Assembly: GCA_018817845.1 (NCBI GenBank)
Contig: JAHITH010000008.1
Location: forward strand, 1-10,699
Length of the DNA: 10,699 nt
From: Patescibacteria group bacterium
Lineage (GTDB): Bacteria; Patescibacteriota; Microgenomatia; UBA1400; MFAQ01
Direction: 5' to 3'
Part shown: positions 1 to 9,839 of the stretch, in pieces
How the letters are laid out: the number at the start of each line of letters is the position of its first letter
Numbering within the stretch: the stretch's first letter is position 1
Translations under genes and position numbers: made by a program
Notes under the pieces: generated by a model
Database searches by the model: none
Seen by the model: only the letters and a program-made list of their open reading frames with translations
What the model was told of the DNA's origin: nothing

Positions 1-710
1 ACCCCCAAAGCCCTACAAGCCTTTTCCGCCTCCATGGCCACATCCTCTGGAACTTTTTCAAGCCCAACAGACTTCCCCAAAGACTTATTCATCACCACTT
101 TTTCTTCCTTTGGCATTCGCTTAAACCCGCCCAAAGTTTTATACCCCACTACAAACAATCGGTAGTCCCCATCGTTAGGAATATACGGCTGTACCAAAAA
201 TCCCCTTTCTCCCGTCACCTCTTTCAAATCAACCTCGTTTCTTATCCAAAACGTCCCCATCCCATGCCGCCCACCCTGACTCACCTTCACCACAAAAGGA
301 CTGTCCTTGTCAAGGACAGTCCTTAATAGTTCCTCCACACTCTCAACATACTCCGTTTCGGGGTAACTCACCCCCGCCTCTTCCATCATTACTCCAGCCA
401 CCGCCTTAAATCTTCGTAACGCACCATCAGTCATCAAGTACTCATCCACCACCGGTATCCCTTCTTTTTTAGCATACAAACACAACAACTTACTCCACTC
501 CAACTCACTCCCCACCGCCCTAAAATAAAACAAATCAAACTCCTTCAAGGTCTCACCTTGTAGGTAAATCTGCCAATCGCCACCCCCCTGTTTTACACTT
601 AACTCTTTATATTTTATCGGCACCAACTCCACCCCCAAGCCCTTCGCTTCTTCCACAAATCTATCCCCAGTCCCCCACTTATCAACTCTATAAAAATAAG
701 CTATCTTCAT
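1..710 (-). CDS. RimK-like ATP-grasp ligase, partial (C-terminus outside window)
   Basis: The first 236 codons of an ATP-grasp enzyme; the 3' end lies beyond the left edge. RimK-type members join a carboxylate to an amine (often an amino acid to a peptide or protein) through an acyl-phosphate made with ATP. Visible parts are an N-terminal alpha/beta domain (MKIAYFYRVDKW), a central segment with RRFKAV (residues 99-104), an ATP-binding lysine and glycine-rich loop in FVVKVSQGGRHGMG (139-152), and the typical QPYIPNDGDYRLFVVG strand-turn-strand (174-189), followed by KR and an Asn at 208. The metal-binding Asp/Glu/Asn end of the fold is not in the window. The ATG at 710-708 overlaps the upstream TGA by 4 bp (ATGA), suggesting translational coupling; GAAGGG lies only 3 nt upstream of it. 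It is the fourth gene of the minus-strand operon starting near 3528. Substrate cannot be told from sequence. Confidence 0.85.
   Translation of the reverse strand, partial: MKIAYFYRVDKWGTGDRFVEEAKGLGVELVPIKYKELSVKQGGGDWQIYLQGETLKEFDLFYFRAVGSELEWSKLLCLYAKKEGIPVVDEYLMTDGALRRFKAVAGVMMEEAGVSYPETEYVESVEELLRTVLDKDSPFVVKVSQGGRHGMGTFWIRNEVDLKEVTGERGFLVQPYIPNDGDYRLFVVGYKTLGGFKRMPKEEKVVMNKSLGKSVGLEKVPEDVAMEAEKACRALG
296..324. repeat. Nested perfect palindrome inside a coding region
   Basis: Two 14-bp arms (AAGGACTGTCCTTG at 296-309 and CAAGGACAGTCCTT at 311-324) are perfect reverse complements around one base. Each half is itself a 13-bp palindrome, AAGGAC-T-GTCCTT and AAGGAC-A-GTCCTT. It lies in frame in the ATP-grasp gene and encodes about residues 129-138 (LRTVLDKDSP), just before the first ATP-binding strand. 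It could be a small inserted palindromic element or a regulatory mRNA hairpin. Confidence 0.9.
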
Positions 711-2023
711 CTGCCCTTCATTTTACTATCTTTAAATCTGCCCGGATTAACTACAAAATCTCGCAAATCTCGCCTGCCTATTAAAAGTTTTTTCCTCAAA
801 TCTTTTCTATTAGTAATGCTCGCCCTAGTCACCACCTTTCTTCCCTTCAACCAAAACACCAACTTAACAACCATCCGTTTTTGCACCCCCAGTGAACTTT
901 TATACCTCTTTCTCCACAACACATTTTCCTTTTCCAAAAGCCCTAACTCCTTAGCTAAACTCCTGTCAATACTAGAACCATAAGCCCCCGTATCAATCTT
1001 GGCCTCTACCAAATATCTCTTTCTCTTTCCTATCTTAATCTCAGCCATCTCAAAAATCCCCACCCTTGTCTTATCTCCAGGCAACTTCCCCACTCTTCTA
1101 ACAAAACTACTGGCAAACAACGCCTTAGCCACCCTTACTCCTTTTTTCGCATCCTCCACGCTCAAACCCTCCACCCTATTCAACCTTCGTTTCAAACCAG
1201 ATCTATTGGCAATCTGAATCGACAAACCAGGCTGATCATTTAACTCCAACACCAACGGACCCTTTTCAGGGTCAATCAACATATCCACTGCCACATATCC
1301 CAACTCACTAGCAATCTGTGTGTCCACCGCCATTCTCAATACCTTATTCCATTCCGGCACCGTAATCCCATTCACCTTCTTTTGGGTTCCGGGGAAAAAC
1401 AATAACTTCTGCCCCTTGTAAACTCCATAAGTAGTAATCCCCGTAGCAATATCAATTCCCAAACCAATAGCTCCTTGGTGTAAATTAGCTTTACCCCCAC
1501 TCTCCTCTGTTGGTAATCTAAGCATGGCCATAATCGGCACCTTGTTATAAACAATCACCCTTACATCCGGCGCTCCACCAGAAGAAATTTTTTTAAACTT
1601 CCTATGAGTTTCAACCCTTTCCTCAATCATCGCCGTGTCAGGAATATTGTTTCTAGAAAAACGCCCCTCCACAACATCCATCGCATGAAGTTTCAAGTCT
1701 TCGGTGGTCACTTTTTTTCCACCCACCAATATCCACTCACCCGCCAGTTTTGCTGGTCGTTTAACCATAATAATTCCTCCACCCTCTAACCCCTGAACCG
1801 GTTTAATCACAAAACCACCCTTTAGTTTTAACCAATCAAACCTGTCAATTTCCAATTGGTTTTTTAGTTTACCCAATAACTTAGGGTGTGGAACCCTTGC
1901 CCTCTTTAAAATCTTTTTAGTCACAAGCTTATCATCAGCTCTCAACCGCGCTCGTTTTTTATTTAGTCTTAAATACTCACTGGAGCGAGTATTTATTCCC
2001 AAAATATCTTTCTGCTTTACCAT
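707..2023 (-). CDS. Alpha-L-glutamate-ligase-like ATP-grasp enzyme fused to a retropepsin-like domain
   Basis: A 438-residue two-domain protein. Residues 1-300 resemble the alpha-L-glutamate ligase-like ATP-grasp family related to RimK. They show the nucleotide-binding segment GGFVIKPVQGLEGGGII (69-85), DVRVIVYNKVPIMAMLRL (153-170), ANLHQGAIGLGID (179-191) and the metal-binding strand VAVDMLIDPEKGPLVLELND (244-263, with D247, E260 and N262). Residues 326-424 match the retropepsin-like fold of the RimB / 'ATP-dependent zinc protease' family: IDTGAYGSS (343-351) holds the catalytic-type Asp-Thr-Gly, and LLIGRRDL (413-420) the second hallmark. In known systems the ligase adds amino acids to a peptide or protein, and the protease-like partner processes the product. 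Here both are in one chain, with no signal peptide or membrane segment, so probably cytosolic. One base separates it from the 7TM gene upstream, and no clear ribosome binding site is visible. The substrate is unknown. Confidence 0.85.
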   Translation of the reverse strand: MVKQKDILGINTRSSEYLRLNKKRARLRADDKLVTKKILKRARVPHPKLLGKLKNQLEIDRFDWLKLKGGFVIKPVQGLEGGGIIMVKRPAKLAGEWILVGGKKVTTEDLKLHAMDVVEGRFSRNNIPDTAMIEERVETHRKFKKISSGGAPDVRVIVYNKVPIMAMLRLPTEESGGKANLHQGAIGLGIDIATGITTYGVYKGQKLLFFPGTQKKVNGITVPEWNKVLRMAVDTQIASELGYVAVDMLIDPEKGPLVLELNDQPGLSIQIANRSGLKRRLNRVEGLSVEDAKKGVRVAKALFASSFVRRVGKLPGDKTRVGIFEMAEIKIGKRKRYLVEAKIDTGAYGSSIDRSLAKELGLLEKENVLWRKRYKSSLGVQKRMVVKLVFWLKGRKVVTRASITNRKDLRKKLLIGRRDLRDFVVNPGRFKDSKMKGR

Positions 2024-2024
2024 T

Positions 2025-2915
2025 TTATTTCAAAAGGTCTCTAAATCTCCACATCTCTAATAGTCTTAGTCCCTTATATCTACTAATTAAATAATTCACC
2101 AGCATCACAGATAATATCGCCATCTCTGGTTGTAACAACACCGTTTCCTGCAACCATACCGAACTCATTACCCAATAGGCTATCAAGGCCAGAACCACGG
2201 TTTCTACAGCCATTATCAAAGCAGTTTTGGTGCTCTTATGAATCTGAGCCTCAATAAACGGATCAGCCAAAAGTACAAACAACAAAATGGGAAAAATACC
2301 AATCTCCCGCAAACTACTCCAATCACCAAGCCAAGGAGATAAAAGCAAAAGTCCAAACACCGCCAACGACACCGCCCAAACCAGCATAGCCATTCTGGGA
2401 AAATACTGCATCCTTACCTTACTAATCAGCTTTCTAGCCAAACTAGCCGTTAAAAGAATCGACAAAAACAAAACCACCCCCACCCCAACTCCCGTAGACA
2501 AAAATGCCACCGACACCGCCGCCGGAATAAAAATACCAAAACCCTTAACCCCCATTACGTTTCTAGAAAAAGCCACCAAGGCCGCAGTCAAGGGAAACAA
2601 CAAAATCAAAACAAACATATTTGGTGGCACCCCCTTACCCACCGCCTGCCTAATAGCTACCTTAAAAAAATTAAAAGGCCAAACCTTCTCAACCACCTGA
2701 TTATCTAGCACTTGTTCCAACCTAGACTTGGTTTCCTCTGGCTTAGTCAAATTTTCCTTAGGTTTTTCAACCTCCAACACCACCACTGGCTCAGCCGCCT
2801 CCGTCGCCCCTGTGGAATTTTCCAAGCGAACCTCCTCCAAGGTGGCCGAATGGACTCCTTGGACGGTGGTGAGCCCCAACATTAAAAATCCCAGTACCAT
2901 CAACAATTTTCGCAT
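2025..2915 (-). CDS. Signal-peptide-bearing 7TM_transglut-type membrane protein, no transglutaminase domain
   Basis: A 296-residue protein. Residues 1-24 form a signal peptide (hydrophobic LLMVLGFLMLGLTTV, cleavage likely after VHSA). Residues 25-95 are a polar, Glu-rich extracytoplasmic segment, and from about 100 there are several hydrophobic helices (roughly 100-119, 127-160, 173-196, 204-220, 230-252, 262-277). Features such as LLFPLTAALVAFSRNVMGVK (105-124) and the C-terminal RLLEMWRFRDLL (284-295) resemble the 7TM domain found fused to inactive transglutaminase domains (7TM_transglut) and encoded beside alpha-L-glutamate-ligase-like ATP-grasp genes. Here the transglutaminase-like region seems absent: only about 70 residues lie between the signal peptide and the first helix. 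The position directly upstream of the ATP-grasp/retropepsin gene supports the assignment. It may anchor, transport or present the ligation product; this is inference. Exact helix number is uncertain. Confidence 0.78.
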   Translation of the reverse strand: MRKLLMVLGFLMLGLTTVQGVHSATLEEVRLENSTGATEAAEPVVVLEVEKPKENLTKPEETKSRLEQVLDNQVVEKVWPFNFFKVAIRQAVGKGVPPNMFVLILLFPLTAALVAFSRNVMGVKGFGIFIPAAVSVAFLSTGVGVGVVLFLSILLTASLARKLISKVRMQYFPRMAMLVWAVSLAVFGLLLLSPWLGDWSSLREIGIFPILLFVLLADPFIEAQIHKSTKTALIMAVETVVLALIAYWVMSSVWLQETVLLQPEMAILSVMLVNYLISRYKGLRLLEMWRFRDLLK

Positions 2916-2925
2916 AAACTATATT

Positions 2926-3528
2926 TTACCGTCCCGCTGCCGAAATTGCCACCAAAATCTTATCAAACGACTCTATTTCTTTATCCAAATCATCCTCCCG
3001 CTCATAACCATTTCCAACCCTAACATACCTGCAACCAAAAACAAATGTTGGAATCGAACCCGCAGAATTAAACTTTTCATAAACAGCTCTATGTTCCTCT
3101 GGCATCCCAGTCTCCACCTCTTCCGTCAAGGTATTGTCTCCAGTATCCACTTGCCAATGATAAGCCACCACCCCATCAACATTTTCACTAGCCCAATCAT
3201 CAAAAGTATCTTTTATCCAAACACAATGCGAACACCAAGTAGTCGAAAATAAATACACCACCGGCTTACCATCTTCCCTACAAACCTCACTATCATATTC
3301 CGTAAAAGTCTCAAACTGCCTAACCAAATCACCCGGAGACGCCAAGGTAGGCTCTGCTACTTCTGCCGAATCCTCCACAACCTCAGCCACCTCATCCTCG
3401 ACCCTGGGTCGGGACATCGTCTCCACCTGCGAACTCAATCTCCCCACAAAAAACACCGCCACTACCAACAATCCCACCAACAAAGGCGCATATATTCCAA
3501 CCTGTACTTTTTTACCATTTTCACTCAT
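2926..3528 (-). CDS. Membrane-anchored thioredoxin-fold protein
   Basis: A 200-residue protein with one N-terminal membrane helix (APLLVGLLVVAVFFVGRL, residues 14-31), an acidic linker (about 40-65) and a thioredoxin-like domain outside the membrane. The redox site is TTWCSHCVW (96-104, CxxC at 99-102), after the strand PVVYLFS (89-95). The cis-proline motif is SIPTFVFGCRYV (158-169, P160). Two extra cysteines (C83, C166) could form a structural disulfide. The insertion between the active-site helix and the cis-Pro, about 40 residues with YHWQVDTGDN, is typical of this fold. It is the first gene of the operon, 10 bp before the 7TM gene, so it may keep cysteines of an exported partner or product in the right redox state. 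The start is set by the promoter, whose -10 ends 7 nt before the ATG; the ATG further upstream is followed at once by a stop. Confidence 0.85.
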   Translation of the reverse strand: MSENGKKVQVGIYAPLLVGLLVVAVFFVGRLSSQVETMSRPRVEDEVAEVVEDSAEVAEPTLASPGDLVRQFETFTEYDSEVCREDGKPVVYLFSTTWCSHCVWIKDTFDDWASENVDGVVAYHWQVDTGDNTLTEEVETGMPEEHRAVYEKFNSAGSIPTFVFGCRYVRVGNGYEREDDLDKEIESFDKILVAISAAGR

Positions 3529-3535
3529 GCACTAC

Positions 3536-3564
3536 ATACTATCCTCTCCACCCCCGCTTGTCAA
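3536..3564 (-). promoter_or_regulatory. Sigma-70-type promoter of the thioredoxin/7TM/ATP-grasp operon
   Basis: On the minus strand a perfect -35 TTGACA (3564-3559) is followed after exactly 17 bp by TAGTAT (3541-3536). The ATG of the thioredoxin-like gene starts 7 nt after the -10, so transcription should begin at or next to the start codon. A purine run (GGAGAGG) falls inside the spacer, upstream of the predicted transcript start, so it would not act as a ribosome binding site for this transcript. Confidence 0.75.
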
Positions 3565-3569
3565 CAACA

Positions 3570-4355
3570 TCACAATTTTTCCAATACCCCACCCAACAAA
3601 TCAAGTTTTCCAATCTCTTTTTCGTCAAACAAAAACGGCTTAAGTCTACGCCTCATCAAAATAGATACACCCTCCCCACCAAATTTAGACTTAGCTTTAT
3701 CAAGTACATCAGATATTCCATTCCCCCCAGCAAACCGCTTGTCTATCTTTGCCCCTTGAGAATATAACCACACAATGTCATAAATATCTCTAGCCTGTGT
3801 CCTAGATCTACCAATATAAGCGGCTAGTTTTTGCACCAAAAGTTGATCCAGTTTATTTGTCACCACTTGCTCTATTAATCCATAGCGCGAAAATAACTTA
3901 AACTCCACCTCTTGGCACTTCCAATATCTTGCATAATCTATCTTAATCATCATCTTTTCTTTTTCATTGCTAGAAATTTTAAGATCAAATAAAATTTTGG
4001 GGAAACGCAGTTCCAAATATGTTTTACCTTCTCCAAGTTTCTTCTTCAATTCCACCTGTATGTTTTCTCGCTCAAACACATCTACTACTTTTTCCACCAA
4101 TTCCAACACCTCTTTGTCAGAAAGTCCCAAATTATCAAAGTCTAAATCCTCAGAAAACCTTGGTAATCCCCTCAACATTCGCAAACTTGTTCCACCCACA
4201 AAAGACATTTTTCCCGCCCTAGGCAAAGCATAAAACTCAACCAAAAACCTACTCTGCAAATACTCACGTAAAACCCCTCTTTTTTTATTTACAGGCAAAC
4301 CCTGGTCCTTAGCAAAATTCAAAATTTTATCAAAACCAGTTATCAAGTTATTCAT
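3570..4355 (-). CDS. abiEii: AbiEii-type nucleotidyltransferase toxin
   Basis: A 261-residue protein of the AbiEii/AbiGii nucleotidyltransferase toxin family (DNA polymerase beta-like fold). The core motif is FVGGTSLRML (52-61) followed by RFSEDLDFD (66-74), giving the GG(S/T)...DxD arrangement that binds metal and nucleotide. KIDYARY (138-144) and QKLAAYIGRSRTQARDIYD (175-193) match the later conserved Lys/Arg and Asp motifs. In characterised AbiE systems this toxin stops growth, is counteracted by AbiEi, and can abort phage infection; related toxins transfer nucleotides to tRNA. Its start overlaps the antitoxin gene by 8 bp, and a good ribosome binding site lies inside that gene. All key motifs look intact, so the toxin is probably active. 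Confidence 0.9.
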   Translation of the reverse strand: MNNLITGFDKILNFAKDQGLPVNKKRGVLREYLQSRFLVEFYALPRAGKMSFVGGTSLRMLRGLPRFSEDLDFDNLGLSDKEVLELVEKVVDVFERENIQVELKKKLGEGKTYLELRFPKILFDLKISSNEKEKMMIKIDYARYWKCQEVEFKLFSRYGLIEQVVTNKLDQLLVQKLAAYIGRSRTQARDIYDIVWLYSQGAKIDKRFAGGNGISDVLDKAKSKFGGEGVSILMRRRLKPFLFDEKEIGKLDLLGGVLEKL

Positions 4356-4920
4356 ACAACACCTTTCTTACCCACTCAGGATAAATTTTCGAATAATCTT
4401 TTAACTTTTTCTTATTTAAATCATCCCGATTTACCCTAGTCGACTCAAGACCCCGAATTCCCCTAATGTAAATCCAATCAAGCAAGGCCTTCTCTGGCTC
4501 AGCCATATTGTAAAACAAGCCACTCTTTTCATCCTTGATTTTTCTATATCCAAAATACAAATTCTTAGCCAACTTACTATACAAAAACATGCCTACACTT
4601 GTTTTTATCTCCTTAGACGTCACCGTTGTTACACTAGTAATTTGCCCCACCACATCAGGAATAATTCCCGCCACTTGCAAGGCTGACTCCAAACTTACAT
4701 AAGAAGGCTTATATAACCAACCAGCCAGCACAAAATCATCTAATTCTCTATCAGCAAATTTATACACACCCCTCTTTAATCTCACTAGCTCTCCCCTCTT
4801 TGTCAATCGTGACAATTGAGTATTTACCATGGTTTTTCCTTCATTAAAAAACAATCTCTCTACCTGATAAGAATAAAAAATTGGTGTTTCAATTGCCCGT
4901 CCAAGTTGCTTCAATGTCAT
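4348..4920 (-). CDS. abiEi: AbiEi-type antitoxin and transcriptional repressor
   Basis: A 190-residue protein of the AbiEi antitoxin family. The N-terminal part (about residues 1-55 from this start) is a winged helix-turn-helix ending in LTKRGELVRLKRGVYKF, the usual turn into the AbiEi C-terminal domain. That domain shows PSYVSLESALQVAGIIP and the family-typical FYNMAEPEKALLDWIY. It neutralises AbiEii and represses its own operon in studied examples. The frame stays open upstream to an ATG at 4947 (nine extra residues, MYMYVYYLL). However, those bases contain the -10 box and much of the promoter spacer, so the ATG at 4920 is preferred. The toxin gene follows with an 8-bp overlap. No damage is visible. 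Confidence 0.88.
   Translation of the reverse strand: MTLKQLGRAIETPIFYSYQVERLFFNEGKTMVNTQLSRLTKRGELVRLKRGVYKFADRELDDFVLAGWLYKPSYVSLESALQVAGIIPDVVGQITSVTTVTSKEIKTSVGMFLYSKLAKNLYFGYRKIKDEKSGLFYNMAEPEKALLDWIYIRGIRGLESTRVNRDDLNKKKLKDYSKIYPEWVRKVLYE
4360..4366 (-). promoter_or_regulatory. Ribosome binding site of the AbiEii toxin
   Basis: The minus strand reads AAAGGTG, a good partial match to the Shine-Dalgarno consensus, with the AAAGG core ending 6 nt before the toxin ATG (4355). It is the clearest ribosome binding site in the window and fixes this start. It contrasts with the promoter-proximal genes, which lack one. Confidence 0.7.
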
Positions 4921-4928
4921 TAATAGAT

Positions 4929-4957
4929 AATATACATACATGTACATTATCTGTCAA
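4929..4957 (-). promoter_or_regulatory. Promoter and candidate operator of the abiE pair
   Basis: The minus strand carries TTGACA (4957-4952), a 17-bp spacer and TATATT (4934-4929), close to consensus. The -10 ends 8 nt before the preferred AbiEi ATG (4920). The spacer holds overlapping palindromes TACATGTA (4937-4944) and ATGTACAT (4940-4947), flanked by ATAAT (4927-4931) and ATTAT (4946-4950). Because AbiEi proteins are known autorepressors that bind inverted repeats, this is a likely operator; the exact site is inferred. Confidence 0.7.
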
Positions 4958-4964
4958 CCCCCAA

Positions 4965-4977
4965 TTCCTTGAAGGAA
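4965..4977. repeat. Small hairpin beside repeat copy 1
   Basis: TTCCTT-G-AAGGAA is a perfect 6-bp-arm palindrome in the gap between the abiE promoter and the end of the Fic gene, overlapping the first five bases of the 17-bp repeat. No T-run follows in either direction, so a terminator role is weakly supported. Confidence 0.5.
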
Positions 4978-4989
4978 CGCAACCTACAA
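4973..4989 (-). repeat. 17-bp repeat, copy 1 (REP-like?)
   Basis: The + strand reads AGGAACGCAACCTACAA (minus: TTGTAGGTTGCGTTCCT). An identical copy lies at 6103-6119. This copy starts 4 bp after the Fic stop codon. The GTAG-led sequence next to a hairpin recalls REP elements served by REP-associated (RAYT) transposases, but no such gene is in the window, so the class is a guess. Confidence 0.75.
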
Positions 4990-4993
4990 AACC

Positions 4994-6040
4994 TTACACC
5001 ATTAACACATAATAAGTTGCCGGACCATAAGATTTTTTCTGCAAAACCTTTTTGTCCACCAACAACTTTAACTTACTTTGAGCTGTTCTCTTAGGTATTT
5101 TTAAAATATCTACCACATCCCCACTAGTAACCCTGCCCAAAGAAGCAGTAAAATCCACAACCGTCATCTCATCATCTTTCAAATAACCCTCTACCAATCC
5201 CTTTTTACCCACAAATTCCAACGTCAAAACTTCTTTCTCCACCCTCAACACCTCCATCAAAAAACCCTCTATGTAATACTCTAACCACTCTGTTAAGTCA
5301 GTTTTTTGCCTACTCTTATAATTTTTACCTGTTTGCAGTTTAGAAAAATACTCCTTTCTGTTTTTATTGTAGTAATCTTCCAGCACCAATACCCTCTTAA
5401 AGTCCCAACCAGATTGATACAAATGCAATAAAGTCAATAGTCTTCCAGTCCTTCCGTTTCCGTCCGCAAAAGGGTGAATTGTCTCAAACTGATAATGCAA
5501 TAACCCAGCCCGAATCACTGGATGCAAATCACTTGTGTTTTTGAGCCAAGATATTAAGTTATTTATAAGATCAGACACCAACTTAGATTCTGGTGCTGTA
5601 TAAACCAACTTTTCTTTACCACTAGCCAAAACATTAACCACATAAACTGGTACTTTTCTCAATCTACCAATTTTTTCCTTACCCATTAAGCCAGCCATCA
5701 CCAACTTATGTAACCTCAAGATTTCTCTCTTACCAAAACAGTCACCACCAGCCATATCATCTACCAGCCTTAATGCCTTCAAATAGTTTTTTACTTCCAA
5801 AATCTGCTCATCTTCTGCCCTAACCTGCCCACCCTTACTTACCACCTCTACCTGATCTTCCCTCAAAACATTACCCTCTATACTAGTCGAACTATACGCC
5901 ATCCTTACTCGCGCCCACCTTCTTAAAAAACTTTCTCTACTCGGAACAAGCCTAGCTCTCTGAACCACCGATTTTGCCTCTGCAATCCTAGACAAATTGT
6001 TCAACATCGACTCACTAATTACAAATTTTGGTTCAAACAT
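4994..6040 (-). CDS. Fic family protein with N-terminal inhibitory motif and C-terminal winged helix
   Basis: A 348-residue Fic protein. The N-terminal Fic_N region holds SSTSIEGN (50-57), matching the (S/T)xxxE(G/N) inhibitory helix, here ahead of the core as in class II Fic proteins; E55 would block productive ATP binding. The catalytic loop is complete: HPFADGNGRTGR (189-200), fitting HxFx(D/E)GNGRxxR with the catalytic His and metal-binding Asp. Residues about 275-348 look like a winged helix (RTAQSKLKLLVDKKVLQKKS, then a strand GPATYYVL), often seen in this group. The likely activity is AMP transfer to a protein target, held in check by the inhibitory motif; targets are unknown. It is a single-gene unit with its own promoter, bracketed by the 17-bp repeats. 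The start fits the promoter and the N-terminal MFEPKF. Confidence 0.92.
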   Translation of the reverse strand: MFEPKFVISESMLNNLSRIAEAKSVVQRARLVPSRESFLRRWARVRMAYSSTSIEGNVLREDQVEVVSKGGQVRAEDEQILEVKNYLKALRLVDDMAGGDCFGKREILRLHKLVMAGLMGKEKIGRLRKVPVYVVNVLASGKEKLVYTAPESKLVSDLINNLISWLKNTSDLHPVIRAGLLHYQFETIHPFADGNGRTGRLLTLLHLYQSGWDFKRVLVLEDYYNKNRKEYFSKLQTGKNYKSRQKTDLTEWLEYYIEGFLMEVLRVEKEVLTLEFVGKKGLVEGYLKDDEMTVVDFTASLGRVTSGDVVDILKIPKRTAQSKLKLLVDKKVLQKKSYGPATYYVLMV

Positions 6041-6046
6041 AAATCA

Positions 6047-6055
6047 ATTATACCA
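6047..6055 (-). promoter_or_regulatory. Extended -10 promoter of the first Fic gene
   Basis: The minus strand reads TGGTATAAT (6055-6047), a perfect extended -10 (TGnTATAAT). Only six bases (TGATTT) separate it from the ATG at 6040, so the message should start at the start codon. No convincing -35 hexamer sits at 16-18 bp, which is common with extended -10 promoters. Confidence 0.7.
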
Positions 6056-6102
6056 CATATCACGCAATAATCACGCCACCAATCCCGCAATAACAAATCA
6101 GT

Positions 6103-6119
6103 AGGAACGCAACCTACAA
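6103..6119 (-). repeat. 17-bp repeat, copy 2
   Basis: Identical to 4973-4989 and in the same orientation. It starts 6 bp after the ABC ATPase stop codon. Here the flanks make a stem, GTAGG (6101-6105) with CCTAC (6113-6117) around 7 bases. On the minus strand a moderately T-rich stretch follows, so it might also act as a weak terminator of the exporter operon. Confidence 0.75.
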
Positions 6120-6125
6120 GCTCAA

Positions 6126-6911
6126 TCAAGAAGTTTTATTAAAAACATCCTCAATTATCTCGTCCAAAGGGGCGTTTTTATACTGCCTGTTCAACTTAAT
6201 CAAAGAGCTGTCCAACACCAACTTACCCTTATTAATCACCACCACCCTATTACACACCTTTTCAATATCTGCCATTTCATGACTGGTCAAAAGAATCGTT
6301 GTCCCCTTTTCCTCGTGCAAACGGCGTAAAAAACCCCTAATTTTTCTTTTAGCAATAACGTCCAAACCAATCGTCGGCTCATCCAAAAACAACAGTTTTG
6401 GCTGATGCAAAATAGCTCCAATCAACTCCATCTTCAATCTCTGCCCTAAAGACAATTTTCTCACCGGCACATCAAGAGAATCTTTAACCTCCAACAGAAA
6501 AGCCAGCTCCTCAACCGTATCTTCCATCTCCTTTTTTTCTAGTCTATAAATACTCTGGAACAGCTTAAAACTTTGATAAGCAGACAAATCCCAAGATAAA
6601 CCAGACTTATTACCCATTACCAAAGCAATCTGGCTCAAAAACGAATACTTACGATCAGTAGGTGTGTACCCCAACACCTCCACCTTACCAGAACTAGGGT
6701 AAAGCAAACCGGTCAGCATCTTTAAAGTAGTGGTCTTACCAGCTCCATTGGGGCCAAGCAACGCCACCGACTCCCCTTTCTTAATCTTCAAACTAATTCT
6801 ATCCACCGCCACCACATCTCTATTTTTAGGTACAAAAACACTCTTCAAAAAGCTCTGCTTAACAGGCACTTTGTAAATCTTGGTTAAGTTCTCTATTGTT
6901 ATAGCCATCAT
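6126..6911 (-). CDS. ABC transporter ATP-binding protein (COG4586-like)
   Basis: A 261-residue ATPase of an ABC-2 type exporter. Motifs: Walker A GPNGAGKT (53-60), signature LSLGQRLKMEL (153-163), Walker B LLFLDEPT (173-180), D-loop GLD (182-184) and H-loop histidine H211 in LLTSHEMADIE. The sequence style (VMGNKSGLSWDL at 98-109, LSLGQRLKMEL) resembles the COG4586 group, which pairs with two ABC2_membrane_6-type permeases, as here. At the Q-loop position, where relatives usually have Gln (as I recall, VMGQKSQLWWDL), this protein has N101, and the later Q is G104. It would power export across the cytoplasmic membrane; the cargo is unknown. The start gap to the permease is 4 bp and no ribosome binding site is evident. 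Two ATGs are adjacent (6911 and 6908) and either could be used. Confidence 0.92.
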   Translation of the reverse strand: MMAITIENLTKIYKVPVKQSFLKSVFVPKNRDVVAVDRISLKIKKGESVALLGPNGAGKTTTLKMLTGLLYPSSGKVEVLGYTPTDRKYSFLSQIALVMGNKSGLSWDLSAYQSFKLFQSIYRLEKKEMEDTVEELAFLLEVKDSLDVPVRKLSLGQRLKMELIGAILHQPKLLFLDEPTIGLDVIAKRKIRGFLRRLHEEKGTTILLTSHEMADIEKVCNRVVVINKGKLVLDSSLIKLNRQYKNAPLDEIIEDVFNKTS

Positions 6912-6915
6912 ATTT

Positions 6916-7752
6916 TCAAGAAGAAGCCGAGGAATAACGCCTCAAAGCTAAGTTCCAAAGCTTAATTTTACCCCAAACAAAAACTATGGTGGTAACAAAA
7001 AGCAATCCCAGCCACCCCAAACCGGTAGTCTTCCCCAGCAAATACGAAGTAGTCAGAGCAATGTGGCTCAAAAAAGGCACCGCCGTCAAGCCCAAAATAA
7101 TTATTTTGTTAGGGTAAGCCTCCAGAGGAATCGCATCACCAAAAAACATTATCTTGTATCCCAAACCAGTAATACTTTTGTTCTGCCCTGTCCAAAACAC
7201 CGTCAGACCCAAAATAAAGTTAAAACAATGAATAGCAATCTGTCCCAAAATAAAAGTCAAAATCGCCAAAGGAATTCCCCAAGGCCGTATAGCAAAATCC
7301 AAATTCCTAGCCATTAAAAACAACAAAGGTAATAAAGCCGGTAAGCCCTGAAAAACAAACATCAATAAATCAACTTTCTGAAAAGTTACATACCAAAGCG
7401 CCGGCAAAGGTTTAGACAAAATTAAATCCAGCTTACCAGAATTAACATCCTGCCCCATTCTGGCAATATTCCCAAAACTCCAAATCCAAGTAGAGTAAAA
7501 ACTCAACTGACCAACAAAAGTAAAAAGAAGCATCTCCGAATAACTATAGCCAGCAATGTTATCCACCCTGCTATATATAATAGAAAGAAATACCAAATAA
7601 GTAACCATGTAAGCCATGGTCGAAGCCAATCCTCCCCAGTTGTTATATACATACGCCGATCCTTCCTTAAAAGAAAAAATTATATTAGCCTTCAAAATAG
7701 CCAATCGTATATCTACGGCCCTTTTTAGTTTCTCAAATTCCCACTGCTTCAT
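6916..7752 (-). CDS. ABC-2 type permease (ABC2_membrane_6-like), second subunit
   Basis: A 278-residue integral membrane protein with about six hydrophobic helices (among them MAYMVTYLVFLSIIY, LLFTFVGQLSFYSTWIW and LLFVTTIVFVWGKI). The short helix-to-loop stretch MGQDVNSGKLDLILSKPLPA and the ending LALRRYSSASS are typical of the COG3694/COG4587 permease families, in which both permeases end in a ...RRYxSAG-like tail. It overlaps the preceding permease gene by 20 bp and is followed 4 bp later by the ATPase, so all three subunits should be made together. AAGG sits 4 nt before the ATG, a short-spaced ribosome binding site. Which COG it belongs to is uncertain. Confidence 0.85.
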   Translation of the reverse strand: MKQWEFEKLKRAVDIRLAILKANIIFSFKEGSAYVYNNWGGLASTMAYMVTYLVFLSIIYSRVDNIAGYSYSEMLLFTFVGQLSFYSTWIWSFGNIARMGQDVNSGKLDLILSKPLPALWYVTFQKVDLLMFVFQGLPALLPLLFLMARNLDFAIRPWGIPLAILTFILGQIAIHCFNFILGLTVFWTGQNKSITGLGYKIMFFGDAIPLEAYPNKIIILGLTAVPFLSHIALTTSYLLGKTTGLGWLGLLFVTTIVFVWGKIKLWNLALRRYSSASS

Positions 7753-8521
7753 ATCGCCTTAAACCTATCTTCCAAATTAATAAACTAAACGGCAAAAAAA
7801 CAGCCACCCAAAAAACCGAAGACAAAAAGGATATATAAATATCCAAACCCCAAACGGGGTTCTTAATTAAGGTTGCTGGTAGAAATCCCATCGCCGGAAA
7901 AGGTGACAAAAGAGTAAACATCTTTAATCTCTCTGGAAAAAGCGAAACCGGAATCATAACCCCGCTAAAAATACGAACAACGTGCGAGGCCACATTCTGC
8001 AGGTGATCAGCTTCAGTTGTCCAAAAAGTAATACTGCCGATCAGCAAATTAATCGCCAAGGCAATTACAAAAGCAAATAACAAACAAAACAAAAACAAAA
8101 TAATCCCCACAAAACTAATAGCAGGCAATAATAATAAACCGCTAAGTAAAAGCAAAATCGACATCACCATAACCACCCCCCTAGAGCCCAAAAAACTAAC
8201 ATACAAAAATAATACTGGGTGAATTGGCCGCAACAAATGGTTGCTCAAAGTACCAAGTTTAATCTCATCATTTAAAATTCTACTAAACCGCGTCGACTCT
8301 GCATCCACCAAACCAGACACCCCATTGGCTATCAAAAAATACGGCGCCAAATCCCAAAAACTTCCCACCCCAGACGATTCCTTGCCAATAATCGACCACA
8401 GCAAAACAATCCCAAAAATAGACAAAGCCTTACCAATAATCGAAAACCACACCTCACCACGGTAATTGGCCACTTGCAATAACCCAAATCCCAAACTGTC
8501 TTTATAAGTAGAAAACTTCAT
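7733..8521 (-). CDS. ABC-2 type permease (ABC2_membrane_6-like), first subunit
   Basis: A 262-residue membrane protein with about six helices (for example GKALSIFGIVLLWSII and SILLLLSGLLLLPAISFVGI). The motif ESTRFSRILNDEIKLGTLSN then HLLRPIHP is the cytoplasmic loop characteristic of this permease family, and the C-terminus IGLRRYEAVGI mirrors that of its partner. The frame stays open to a TTG at 8563, adding MIGWQAGDGIEWVH, but family proteins normally begin just before YKDSLGFGLLQVANYRGE. The ATG at 8521 is therefore preferred; a -10-like box ends 10 nt upstream of it. It is the first gene of the exporter operon. Confidence 0.85.
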   Translation of the reverse strand: MKFSTYKDSLGFGLLQVANYRGEVWFSIIGKALSIFGIVLLWSIIGKESSGVGSFWDLAPYFLIANGVSGLVDAESTRFSRILNDEIKLGTLSNHLLRPIHPVLFLYVSFLGSRGVVMVMSILLLLSGLLLLPAISFVGIILFLFCLLFAFVIALAINLLIGSITFWTTEADHLQNVASHVVRIFSGVMIPVSLFPERLKMFTLLSPFPAMGFLPATLIKNPVWGLDIYISFLSSVFWVAVFLPFSLLIWKIGLRRYEAVGI

Positions 8522-8531
8522 ATGAACCCAT

Positions 8532-8559
8532 TCTATACCATCCCCTGCCTGCCACCCAA
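8532..8559 (-). promoter_or_regulatory. Possible promoter of the exporter operon
   Basis: The minus strand has TGGTATAGA (extended -10; hexamer TATAGA at 8537-8532) and a weak -35 TTGGGT (8559-8554) with a 16-bp spacer. The ATG at 8521 is 10 nt beyond the -10. An alternative minus-strand TATAAT (8593-8588) further upstream would give a leader of about 60 nt; I cannot decide between them. Confidence 0.4.
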
Positions 8560-8566
8560 TCAAGAA

Positions 8567-8627: not shown

Positions 8628-9839
8628 ATGATAAAAATAGTAACAAAAAAACCATTTAAACAACCCTTTCTGAATCAGCTGATTTTAGCACCCAGCTTGT
8701 TGCCCTTTTCAGATGCAGAAATTCTTAAATTAGACGCAGATTTAGATCAATATGAACAATTATTTTTAAACCCCGATATTGAAAAGGCCCTTATTGATAA
8801 AAATGAACTGTTAACCTCTTACGCTATCTCTAAGGCAGAAAACTCTACATTGACCTTGCAAGAAGCTCAAAATGTATATAACTTTCTTCTTAATAATAAA
8901 GAATATACATTTATAGCTGATAAGTTAAAGAAAAAACAAAAATTAAACAAAAGGGACTATGAAAAACTTGAGTTTTTTAATATTGCAAAAGTATTTAGAA
9001 AATACAATCAAAATCCAGTAGACATAAAGGATATAACCCCAAAAACCATAAAAGAAATTCACAAACAACTAACCCAAGGACTAGATGTTTTCCAAGATTA
9101 TCTGGCAGATTTTGATGTTTATAAATCAGGACAATGGAGAGACAGCAACAATATTCAAGTTGGAGCCTACAAACCAGCTCCACACACAGAAATTGAAAAG
9201 GGGGTAAAAGAATTGCTTTCGTGGATAAAACAAAATAAAAACATTACCTCTGTGGGTATATTTCACACTGCTTTATACGCTCTTCATCCCTTTAGTAATG
9301 GTAACAAAAGAGTTTCTCGAGTACTTGAACATATATTTTTAAGAAGTTTGGGTATTAATACAAAAGGTCTTTACAGCACCTCTTATTACTACCACAAAGA
9401 AAAACCACGATACTATAAATATTTACTGTATTCGCTTGAAAGAAAAAACCTAAATCATTTTGTGTCGTTTTTCCAAGAAGCACTGGTATTGTCCATCATC
9501 TCAGTTATCAAAACCAGTTTAGAGACAAAACGCAAGGAATTTTTAGACAAAAAAGACATAGATAAACAAGTAAAAAGTATTCTTAAACCTTTAATAAAAC
9601 GACACGAAGTGCAATTTAAAAATCTTTTTAAAAAGGTTGGTAAGAAAATGGCCAGGCAAACCTTTGTTAATTATTTACAACAAGCGACAGATTTAAACAT
9701 CGTAACAAGACGAGGAGTGGGTCGAACTACCTACTACAGCTTAAGTATTTCACCAGAGGAAGAACAAACATTTAAAACGTTGCTTGATTTCATAAAACCC
9801 AAACTTAATTTTATCCCCAACGAGATAAAATTAACCTAA
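8628..9839 (+). CDS. Fic/Doc-type protein with Doc-like GNKR loop and C-terminal winged helix
   Basis: A 403-residue Fic-fold protein. The N-terminal part has SYAISKAENSTLTLQEAQNV (64-83), resembling Fic_N inhibitory helices with E71-N72, though the Ser is at the third rather than the fourth position before Glu. The catalytic loop is HPFSNGNKRVSR (220-231): the His, Phe, Gly-Asn and Arg are present, but the usual Asp/Glu is Asn (N224) and the second Gly is Lys (K227). This matches the Doc-type loop HxFx(D/N)(A/G)NKR, whose founding member phosphorylates EF-Tu, better than AMP-transferring Fic enzymes. The C-terminal part (about 320-375; RQTFVNYLQQATDLNIVTRR, then GRTTYYSL) looks like a winged helix. 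No antitoxin gene lies next to it. Base composition is clearly more AT-rich than the minus-strand operons. Activity and target are open. Confidence 0.85.
   Translation: MIKIVTKKPFKQPFLNQLILAPSLLPFSDAEILKLDADLDQYEQLFLNPDIEKALIDKNELLTSYAISKAENSTLTLQEAQNVYNFLLNNKEYTFIADKLKKKQKLNKRDYEKLEFFNIAKVFRKYNQNPVDIKDITPKTIKEIHKQLTQGLDVFQDYLADFDVYKSGQWRDSNNIQVGAYKPAPHTEIEKGVKELLSWIKQNKNITSVGIFHTALYALHPFSNGNKRVSRVLEHIFLRSLGINTKGLYSTSYYYHKEKPRYYKYLLYSLERKNLNHFVSFFQEALVLSIISVIKTSLETKRKEFLDKKDIDKQVKSILKPLIKRHEVQFKNLFKKVGKKMARQTFVNYLQQATDLNIVTRRGVGRTTYYSLSISPEEEQTFKTLLDFIKPKLNFIPNEIKLT

Follow-up and report, generated by a model that had tools for sequence, protein, structure and literature searches.

What might a membrane protein, an ATP-grasp ligase and a protease accomplish together when their genes are packed back to back, and when ligase and protease share one chain? 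The question is raised by a 10,699-nt stretch of DNA from a Patescibacteria group bacterium (assembly GCA_018817845.1, contig JAHITH010000008.1; hereafter the window), which is one entire contig of a source genome of 718 kb in 107 contigs that is 88% complete. The window encodes, in order of transcription, a thioredoxin-fold protein, a seven-transmembrane (7TM) protein, an ATP-grasp/retropepsin fusion (AGR) and a second, RimK-like ATP-grasp protein. A first-pass annotation, made from the letters alone, had read these four genes as an operon that makes and handles a cysteine-containing peptide or modified protein at the membrane. We find that the conserved core is the pair of 7TM protein and AGR, smaller and wider than the four-gene operon and more interesting than its thioredoxin member. 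With moderate confidence, we regard this pair as the Patescibacteria form of the Rlo system of Pseudomonas, in which AGR would be both writer and eraser of polyglutamate. The relation to Rlo, the shift of the protease from a secreted to a cytosolic location and the pattern of MATCAP peptidases described below all go beyond the first-pass annotation.

The 7TM–AGR pair and its relation to the Rlo proteins

Of 138 relatives, 98 carried the 7TM protein; so did 109 of 379 sampled Patescibacteria genomes and none of 14 control genomes. The neighborhood of the 7TM gene was compared in 100 loci chosen by search score and extent of contig, not at random: 40 from the 98 genomes with a hit among the relatives and 60 from the further hits of a phylum-wide draw. 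Two loci (L056 and L144) in which a simple open reading frame (ORF) caller and a hidden Markov model (HMM) gave no 7TM ORF were left out, leaving 99 loci including the window. AGR directly followed the 7TM gene on the same strand in 96 of these 99, with a median gap of 2 nt; the three loci without an adjoining AGR were L110 and L111, both at a contig end, and L150. Since this order recurs so widely, and since a same-genus genome (G001, locus L032) carries the same four genes in the same order, the four-gene arrangement is far beyond chance. The earlier proposal that the genes are linked, and that ligase, retropepsin and 7TM genes associate, was therefore right. Iyer et al. (2009) reportedly predicted, in their amidoligase networks, that RimK-like ATP-grasp genes are linked with 7TM_transglut and retropepsin-like ones; outside that paper, our search of the literature by title and abstract returned no description of an AGR-type system in Patescibacteria.

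The ATP-grasp half of AGR scored 211 bits against PF14397 (cut-off 31.4) and 267.9 bits against TIGR02291, under that model's cut-off of 314.2. A structure model of AGR (predicted local distance difference test score, pLDDT, 85) had RimK as its nearest solved folds, with D-Ala-D-Ala ligases also among the fold neighbors, and a profile search matched the ATP-grasp half with RimK and the other half with solved retropepsins; as a single sequence, AGR had no match in the PDB at E 0.01. The retropepsin half appears in Pfam below cut-off only (PF05618, 25.1 vs. 27 bits), and its identity is clear from the DTG motif, from the profile match to the solved retropepsins 9g58 and 9g59 and from the relatives L113 and L143, which score above the cut-off.

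In Pseudomonas aeruginosa, one operon encodes RloA, a secreted retropepsin, RloB, an inactive transglutaminase with a 7TM domain, and RloC, an ATP-grasp protein; the triple protease mutant has an osmotic defect, which is rescued when rloB or rloC is lost (PMC12239564). Aligned over 314 positions, the ATP-grasp half of the window's AGR and Pseudomonas RloC share 41% identity (E 8e-77); the 7TM protein and Pseudomonas RloB share 24% over 262 positions (E 4e-18). RloA cuts reporters with 8 or 10 consecutive glutamates and not those with 6 or fewer; D48 is the catalytic residue, the authors' model places K46, R92, R114 and R137 in contact with the chain, and the most damaging substitutions are R114A and R137A (PMC12239564). 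When nine Pseudomonas RloA sequences were aligned with AGR (the Pseudomonas locus used for this numbers one lower), K46, D48, R114 and R137 fell on AGR K342, D344, R383 and R406. For the count of these residues, four AGRs of fewer than 400 residues were left out, giving 92 proteins; among the 60 of them with an intact D-[TS]-G motif, K342 is kept in 54, D344 in 60 (by definition), R383 in 57 and R406 in 54.

The 7TM protein scored 93 bits against PF14402 (cut-off 25). Its AlphaFold model (pLDDT 88) consists of a signal-like helix, a low-confidence stretch (about residues 20–55) and seven transmembrane helices, and had no Foldseek match at E ≤ 0.001. The C terminus is positively charged and, by loop charges that favor the cytosolic side, probably lies in the cytosol. 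In Pfam, the window's protein has the 7TM domain alone, with no transglutaminase domain. Relatives in other classes carry an N-terminal part of about 300 residues; among nine such long relatives scanned, eight have a PKD domain and none a Pfam transglutaminase. Elsewhere in the source genome, on another contig (L250, 553–2322), we observed a free-standing transglutaminase-like protein in which Cys, His and Asp seem to be in place and which has, by eye, a C-terminal transmembrane segment; in seven loci of family f11, proteins of this kind are encoded close to the 7TM gene.

How AGR differs from the Pseudomonas proteins emerged from a scan of named genomes, in which we considered the best 80 of at least 578 confirmed AGR matches and counted names from titles: 52 candidate phyla radiation (CPR) names, 14 unnamed bacteria, 13 Pseudomonas or Stutzerimonas and one Omnitrophota. 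The closest among these best 80 belong to Candidatus Woesebacteria and other Microgenomates, with best identities of 43–53%. Retropepsin and ligase lie on the same chain in all 66 CPR and unnamed loci of this set (the frame of L166 being broken). In the 14 Pseudomonas, Stutzerimonas and Omnitrophota loci, the match ends by residue 319; in the nine of them where a retropepsin was found, it has a gene of its own, and the encoded protein usually starts with a hydrophobic segment. In this sample, then, the fusion marks the Patescibacteria form. The protease is expected in the cytosol, in contrast to the secreted RloA, because it is joined to a ligase that depends on ATP and has no evident signal sequence. 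A ligase and a cutter on one chain also suggest a shared product, and one purified protein would permit a direct test. The source states that 96% of RloB hits are proteobacterial (PMC12239564), a figure that the occurrence of the 7TM half in the Patescibacteria genomes sampled here (109 of 379) qualifies.

MATCAP and decay of the retropepsin motif

Other lineages of the phylum add a second peptidase to the pair. MATCAP/TMCP proteins are tubulin carboxypeptidases that also remove polyglutamate (PMC10499314). In many families other than the window's, AGR is a protein of about 790 residues composed of ATP-grasp, retropepsin region and MATCAP (PF08014, DUF1704) domain; in the four of this length that we examined, Pfam confirmed the ATP-grasp and MATCAP domains, and the retropepsin region had no Pfam match. 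A separate MATCAP gene comes directly after AGR in f8, f11 and f13, three families of the window's order, and in three further families; the genome of the exceptional locus L150 has a MATCAP hit in a 795-residue frame 72 kb away. The HExxxH motif is kept in 43 of 44 MATCAP sequences, the remaining one being cut by the end of its stretch, and is then followed by EEG in 30 and by QEG in 13. Across the 379 genomes, 61 of 63 strong MATCAP hits (E < 1e-20), and 66 of 84 hits of any strength, were in genomes with the 7TM protein.

We analyzed the D-[TS]-G motif of the 92 AGRs by MATCAP status, with MATCAP absence resting on one Pfam search per genome, the genomes being often incomplete and some hits weak (to E 5e-6). 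The motif was intact in 45/45 AGRs from genomes without a MATCAP hit. With MATCAP adjoining or elsewhere in the genome, it was intact in 13/26 and lost in 13/26; with MATCAP fused, it was intact in 2/21 and lost in 19/21. Thus, 32/47 AGRs of MATCAP-positive genomes have lost the motif (Fisher p 1.5e-13, uncorrected for kinship). On the ATP-grasp tree, the motif was lost at three places, each with MATCAP fused or next door; two leaves with a live motif stand inside the fused clade, making five changes in all. Motif loss is therefore repeated and confined to genomes with a MATCAP hit. The window's genome, with no MATCAP hit and an intact retropepsin, is as this pattern predicts. In the 32 AGRs with a lost motif, where residue counts rest on a hard alignment, K342 is kept in 5/32 and R406 in 5/32. 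Since Gly416 is kept in 30/32 of these domains, the retropepsin fold probably persists after the motif has gone.

We read these patterns to mean that the eraser of AGR is exchangeable. That one cutter has decayed repeatedly, and only in the presence of another, points to a glutamate chain as the product. Together, these results raise the possibility, which we put forward tentatively, of membrane-docked polyglutamate editing by a single protein that unites writer and eraser and whose eraser has been exchanged at least three times, from retropepsin to MATCAP carboxypeptidase.

Ligase number varies as well. Among the 60 loci where MATCAP is neither fused to AGR nor encoded directly after it, 37, from 18 families, have one to four extra ATP-grasp genes behind AGR, vs. 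none of the 21 loci with a fused MATCAP (kinship ignored). A doubled ligase is thus a common arrangement and does not mark an undescribed variant, as had been suggested for the window. We also observed more elaborate forms: in family f61 (L157, L158 and L159), AGR precedes three ATP-grasp genes, one of about 565 residues, with a MATCAP gene nearby on the opposite strand in L158 and L159; and L143 encodes (2908–5673) a 921-residue protein with ATP-grasp, retropepsin and a second ATP-grasp on one chain, in the order writer, eraser, writer.

Proposed mechanism and alternative explanations

How might the pair work? In the reading that we favor, AGR would be cytosolic and docked at the membrane. 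Its ATP-grasp half, the writer, would add a glutamate chain to an acceptor and its retropepsin half, the eraser, would shorten that chain, so that a single polypeptide would set chain length. The 7TM protein, with its positively charged and predicted cytosolic C terminus, is a likely docking or acceptor partner. Extra RimK-like ligases would supply further addition steps, and the thioredoxin-fold protein would be an order-level accessory acting outside the pair. If the Rlo mutants are a guide, the output would be cell-envelope or osmotic homeostasis. This physiological output, the docking, the acceptor and the choice of glutamate as monomer are all inferred.

Several observations weigh against this reading or the proposed exchange of erasers. 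In Patescibacteria, both the ligase and the protease activity of AGR are predictions from sequence. A test of independent pairs gave 1–2 of 8 in the expected direction and none opposed, and with three losses it cannot reach 0.05. Among the 32 lost motifs, 21 lack the Asp and 11 keep it, losing only the T/S-G that follows; in those 11, loss of activity is likely, not certain. Thirteen genomes combine MATCAP (some hits weak) with an intact retropepsin, and two MATCAP-fused proteins keep D-[TS]-G. The link of MATCAP to a ligase is not universal, since MATCAP stands alone in 9/9 Pseudomonas genomes searched, with no ATP-grasp found by HMMs in the flanks fetched; in the Omnitrophota genome, no MATCAP was found. 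Lastly, as to S6 as a candidate acceptor, none of three S6 C termini read in family f1 ends in Glu-Glu, the C terminus of E. coli S6. Of eight S6 C termini read in relatives, one ends in Glu-Glu and seven do not; S6 itself was found in 16 of 19 genomes and was not detected in the source genome (G000), G001 and G016, each less than 90% complete.

We then weighed other explanations. The product of AGR and the 7TM protein could instead be a free polymer (poly-alpha-glutamate or some comparable anionic chain) that the pair makes and exports, to serve as an osmolyte or as material of the cell surface; the peptidase would trim or recycle it, and no protein acceptor would be involved. The 7TM protein could be a transporter, Rlo mutants have osmotic, biofilm and cell-shape defects, and free polyglutamate is among the possibilities raised by the authors (PMC12239564); we consider this version rather unlikely, and it is the foremost competitor of an acceptor-bound chain. 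A chain of something other than glutamate is an unlikely explanation too: AGR would ligate another amino acid or modify a cell-wall peptide, and retropepsin and MATCAP would process that product. TIGR02291 is only a hypothetical equivalog under whose cut-off the window falls, the Pfam model is named for a sugar-transfer associated ATP-grasp, and the D-Ala-D-Ala ligases among the fold neighbors would fit such a product. The best fold and profile matches are nevertheless RimK, the polyglutamate-contacting residues are conserved and MATCAP is a deglutamylase family in eukaryotes (PMC10499314). It is improbable, finally, that the retropepsin half regulates the ligase, with its decay reflecting relaxed regulation and not replacement by MATCAP. 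The conserved Gly416 and the probably persisting fold suit this idea, as does the report that RimB binds and regulates RimK (PMC12239564); motif loss only in genomes with a MATCAP hit (0/45 elsewhere) speaks against it.

The thioredoxin-fold gene bears on the cysteine-containing product proposed earlier. The protein has both a CxxC and a thioredoxin domain, the latter by a marginal match (PF00085, 23.9 bits vs. a cut-off of 23.5), and is not the TIGR01068 equivalog (19.7 vs. 96.8 bits). Its anchor is 47.5% identical over 40 residues to that of a DsbA-like relative, the domain itself being thioredoxin-type and not DsbA-type. With the DsbA-like protein of a family member as query, 15 of the 32 genomes that encode the 7TM protein, spread over 6 of 14 families, proved to have a co-oriented thioredoxin-fold gene no more than 1 kb upstream of the 7TM gene; random placement, in a model that ignores shared ancestry, would give about 0.1% per genome. 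Searched with the same HMM, the 60 loci drawn from the wider phylum gave none. The thioredoxin-fold gene is thus no chance neighbor in a single genome; it looks like an accessory of the window's order. Cysteine is absent from both the 7TM protein and AGR of the window, so the target of the thioredoxin-fold protein is not a thiol of either. A redox-linked, cysteine-containing peptide or modified protein, for which the recurrence of the thioredoxin-fold gene in six families of the order speaks, is very improbable given the lack of cysteine, of any small peptide gene that stood out among recurrent neighbors (ORFs of at least 60 residues) and of the gene in the wider phylum loci, and given a retropepsin that instead carries the residues modelled to contact polyglutamate in RloA.

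The locus and its place among known systems

Coordinates confirm exactly the earlier description of four packed minus-strand genes, with spacings of 10 bp and 1 bp followed by a 4-bp overlap.

Table 1. Features of the four-gene locus in the window
Feature	Position	Strand	Remarks
Membrane-anchored thioredoxin-fold protein, accessory	2926..3528	-	200 aa; WCSHC; anchor like that of DsbA-like proteins at the equivalent spot in relatives
7TM protein	2025..2915	-	296 aa; signal-like helix and 7 transmembrane helices; PF14402 2.4e-26
ATP-grasp/retropepsin fusion (AGR)	707..2023	-	438 aa
AGR ATP-grasp domain, residues 1-292	1148..2023	-	RloC-type, polyglutamate-ligase-like; PF14397 2.3e-62, TIGR02291 9.6e-80 (below cut-off)
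AGR retropepsin domain, residues 319-438	707..1069	-	K342, D344-T-G, R383, R406; predicted polyglutamate eraser
Second RimK-like ATP-grasp gene	1..710	-	truncated at contig end, base 1
Possible sigma-70-like promoter	3536..3564	-	TTGACA-17-TAGTAT; about chance level

The second ligase scored 25.6 bits against the RimK model PF08443 (cut-off 21) in its truncated form and 66 bits at full length in the sister genome G001. There, the locus continues with the complete second ATP-grasp (289 aa), a third ATP-grasp (311 aa) and then mnmA. A single promoter ahead of the operon, as first annotated, could not be upheld: the one sigma-70-like site matches the consensus at 10/12 positions where shuffled sequence yields a mean of 0.6 sites, and an AbiEii gene on the same strand ends only 41 bp upstream.

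That gene belongs to an AbiEi/AbiEii toxin–antitoxin pair (3570–4947, minus strand) directly upstream of the operon, and ORFs of like size and family stand at the same place in G001. The rest of the contig holds two different Fic-domain proteins (4994–6040, minus; 8628–9839, plus), the first of which matches PADLOC SoFic, and an ABC transporter operon (6126–8563, minus) with one ATPase (PF00005) and two membrane ORFs that are ABC-2 type by eye. GC skew is strong (about −0.3 to −0.6) over positions 1–8500 and fades to zero near the right end. Among the loci compared, mnmA lies within six genes downstream of AGR in 22 of the 40 of the class (L032–L071), and many others have ruvC (by eye) and yebC immediately upstream; this is probably old housekeeping synteny.

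Three known systems invite comparison. Tubulin is modified by TTLL writers opposed by TMCP/MATCAP erasers, that is, by an ATP-dependent glutamate ligase and an HExxxH carboxypeptidase of the MATCAP family (PMC10499314), and other lineages of the phylum, not the window's own genome, show the same pairing. Here, however, it is bacterial, often on one polypeptide and, as far as known, with no tubulin. If the exchange of erasers proposed above is true, the bacterial side of the MATCAP family acts in the same kind of writer–eraser code as in tubulin. Closer in fold are RimK, the ATP-grasp polyglutamate ligase of S6, and RimB, the cytosolic retropepsin that cuts the tail (PMC12239564). As in AGR, a glutamate ligase of the ATP-grasp fold is paired with a cytosolic retropepsin, and the window's second ligase has a RimK-like domain; in contrast to RimK and RimB, AGR fuses both in one chain and has a membrane partner.

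The nearest relative is RloABC, with which the window shares an RloB-type 7TM gene beside the ligase, an RloC-type ATP-grasp, their arrangement in one operon and a retropepsin with the same catalytic and polyglutamate-contacting residues. The two differ in that RloA is secreted by its own signal peptide, whereas the window's retropepsin is the C-terminal half of the ligase and has none, and in that RloB has an inactive transglutaminase domain that the window's 7TM protein lacks; moreover, the Patescibacteria loci add RimK-like ligases, and other lineages have MATCAP fused or adjacent. A Shewanella homolog of the 7TM protein affects vesicle production, as reported in PMC12096838. Together, these comparisons describe a Rlo-like system that lacks two defining features, the secreted protease and the transglutaminase domain; it is hence not RloABC, and it probably works like RloABC.

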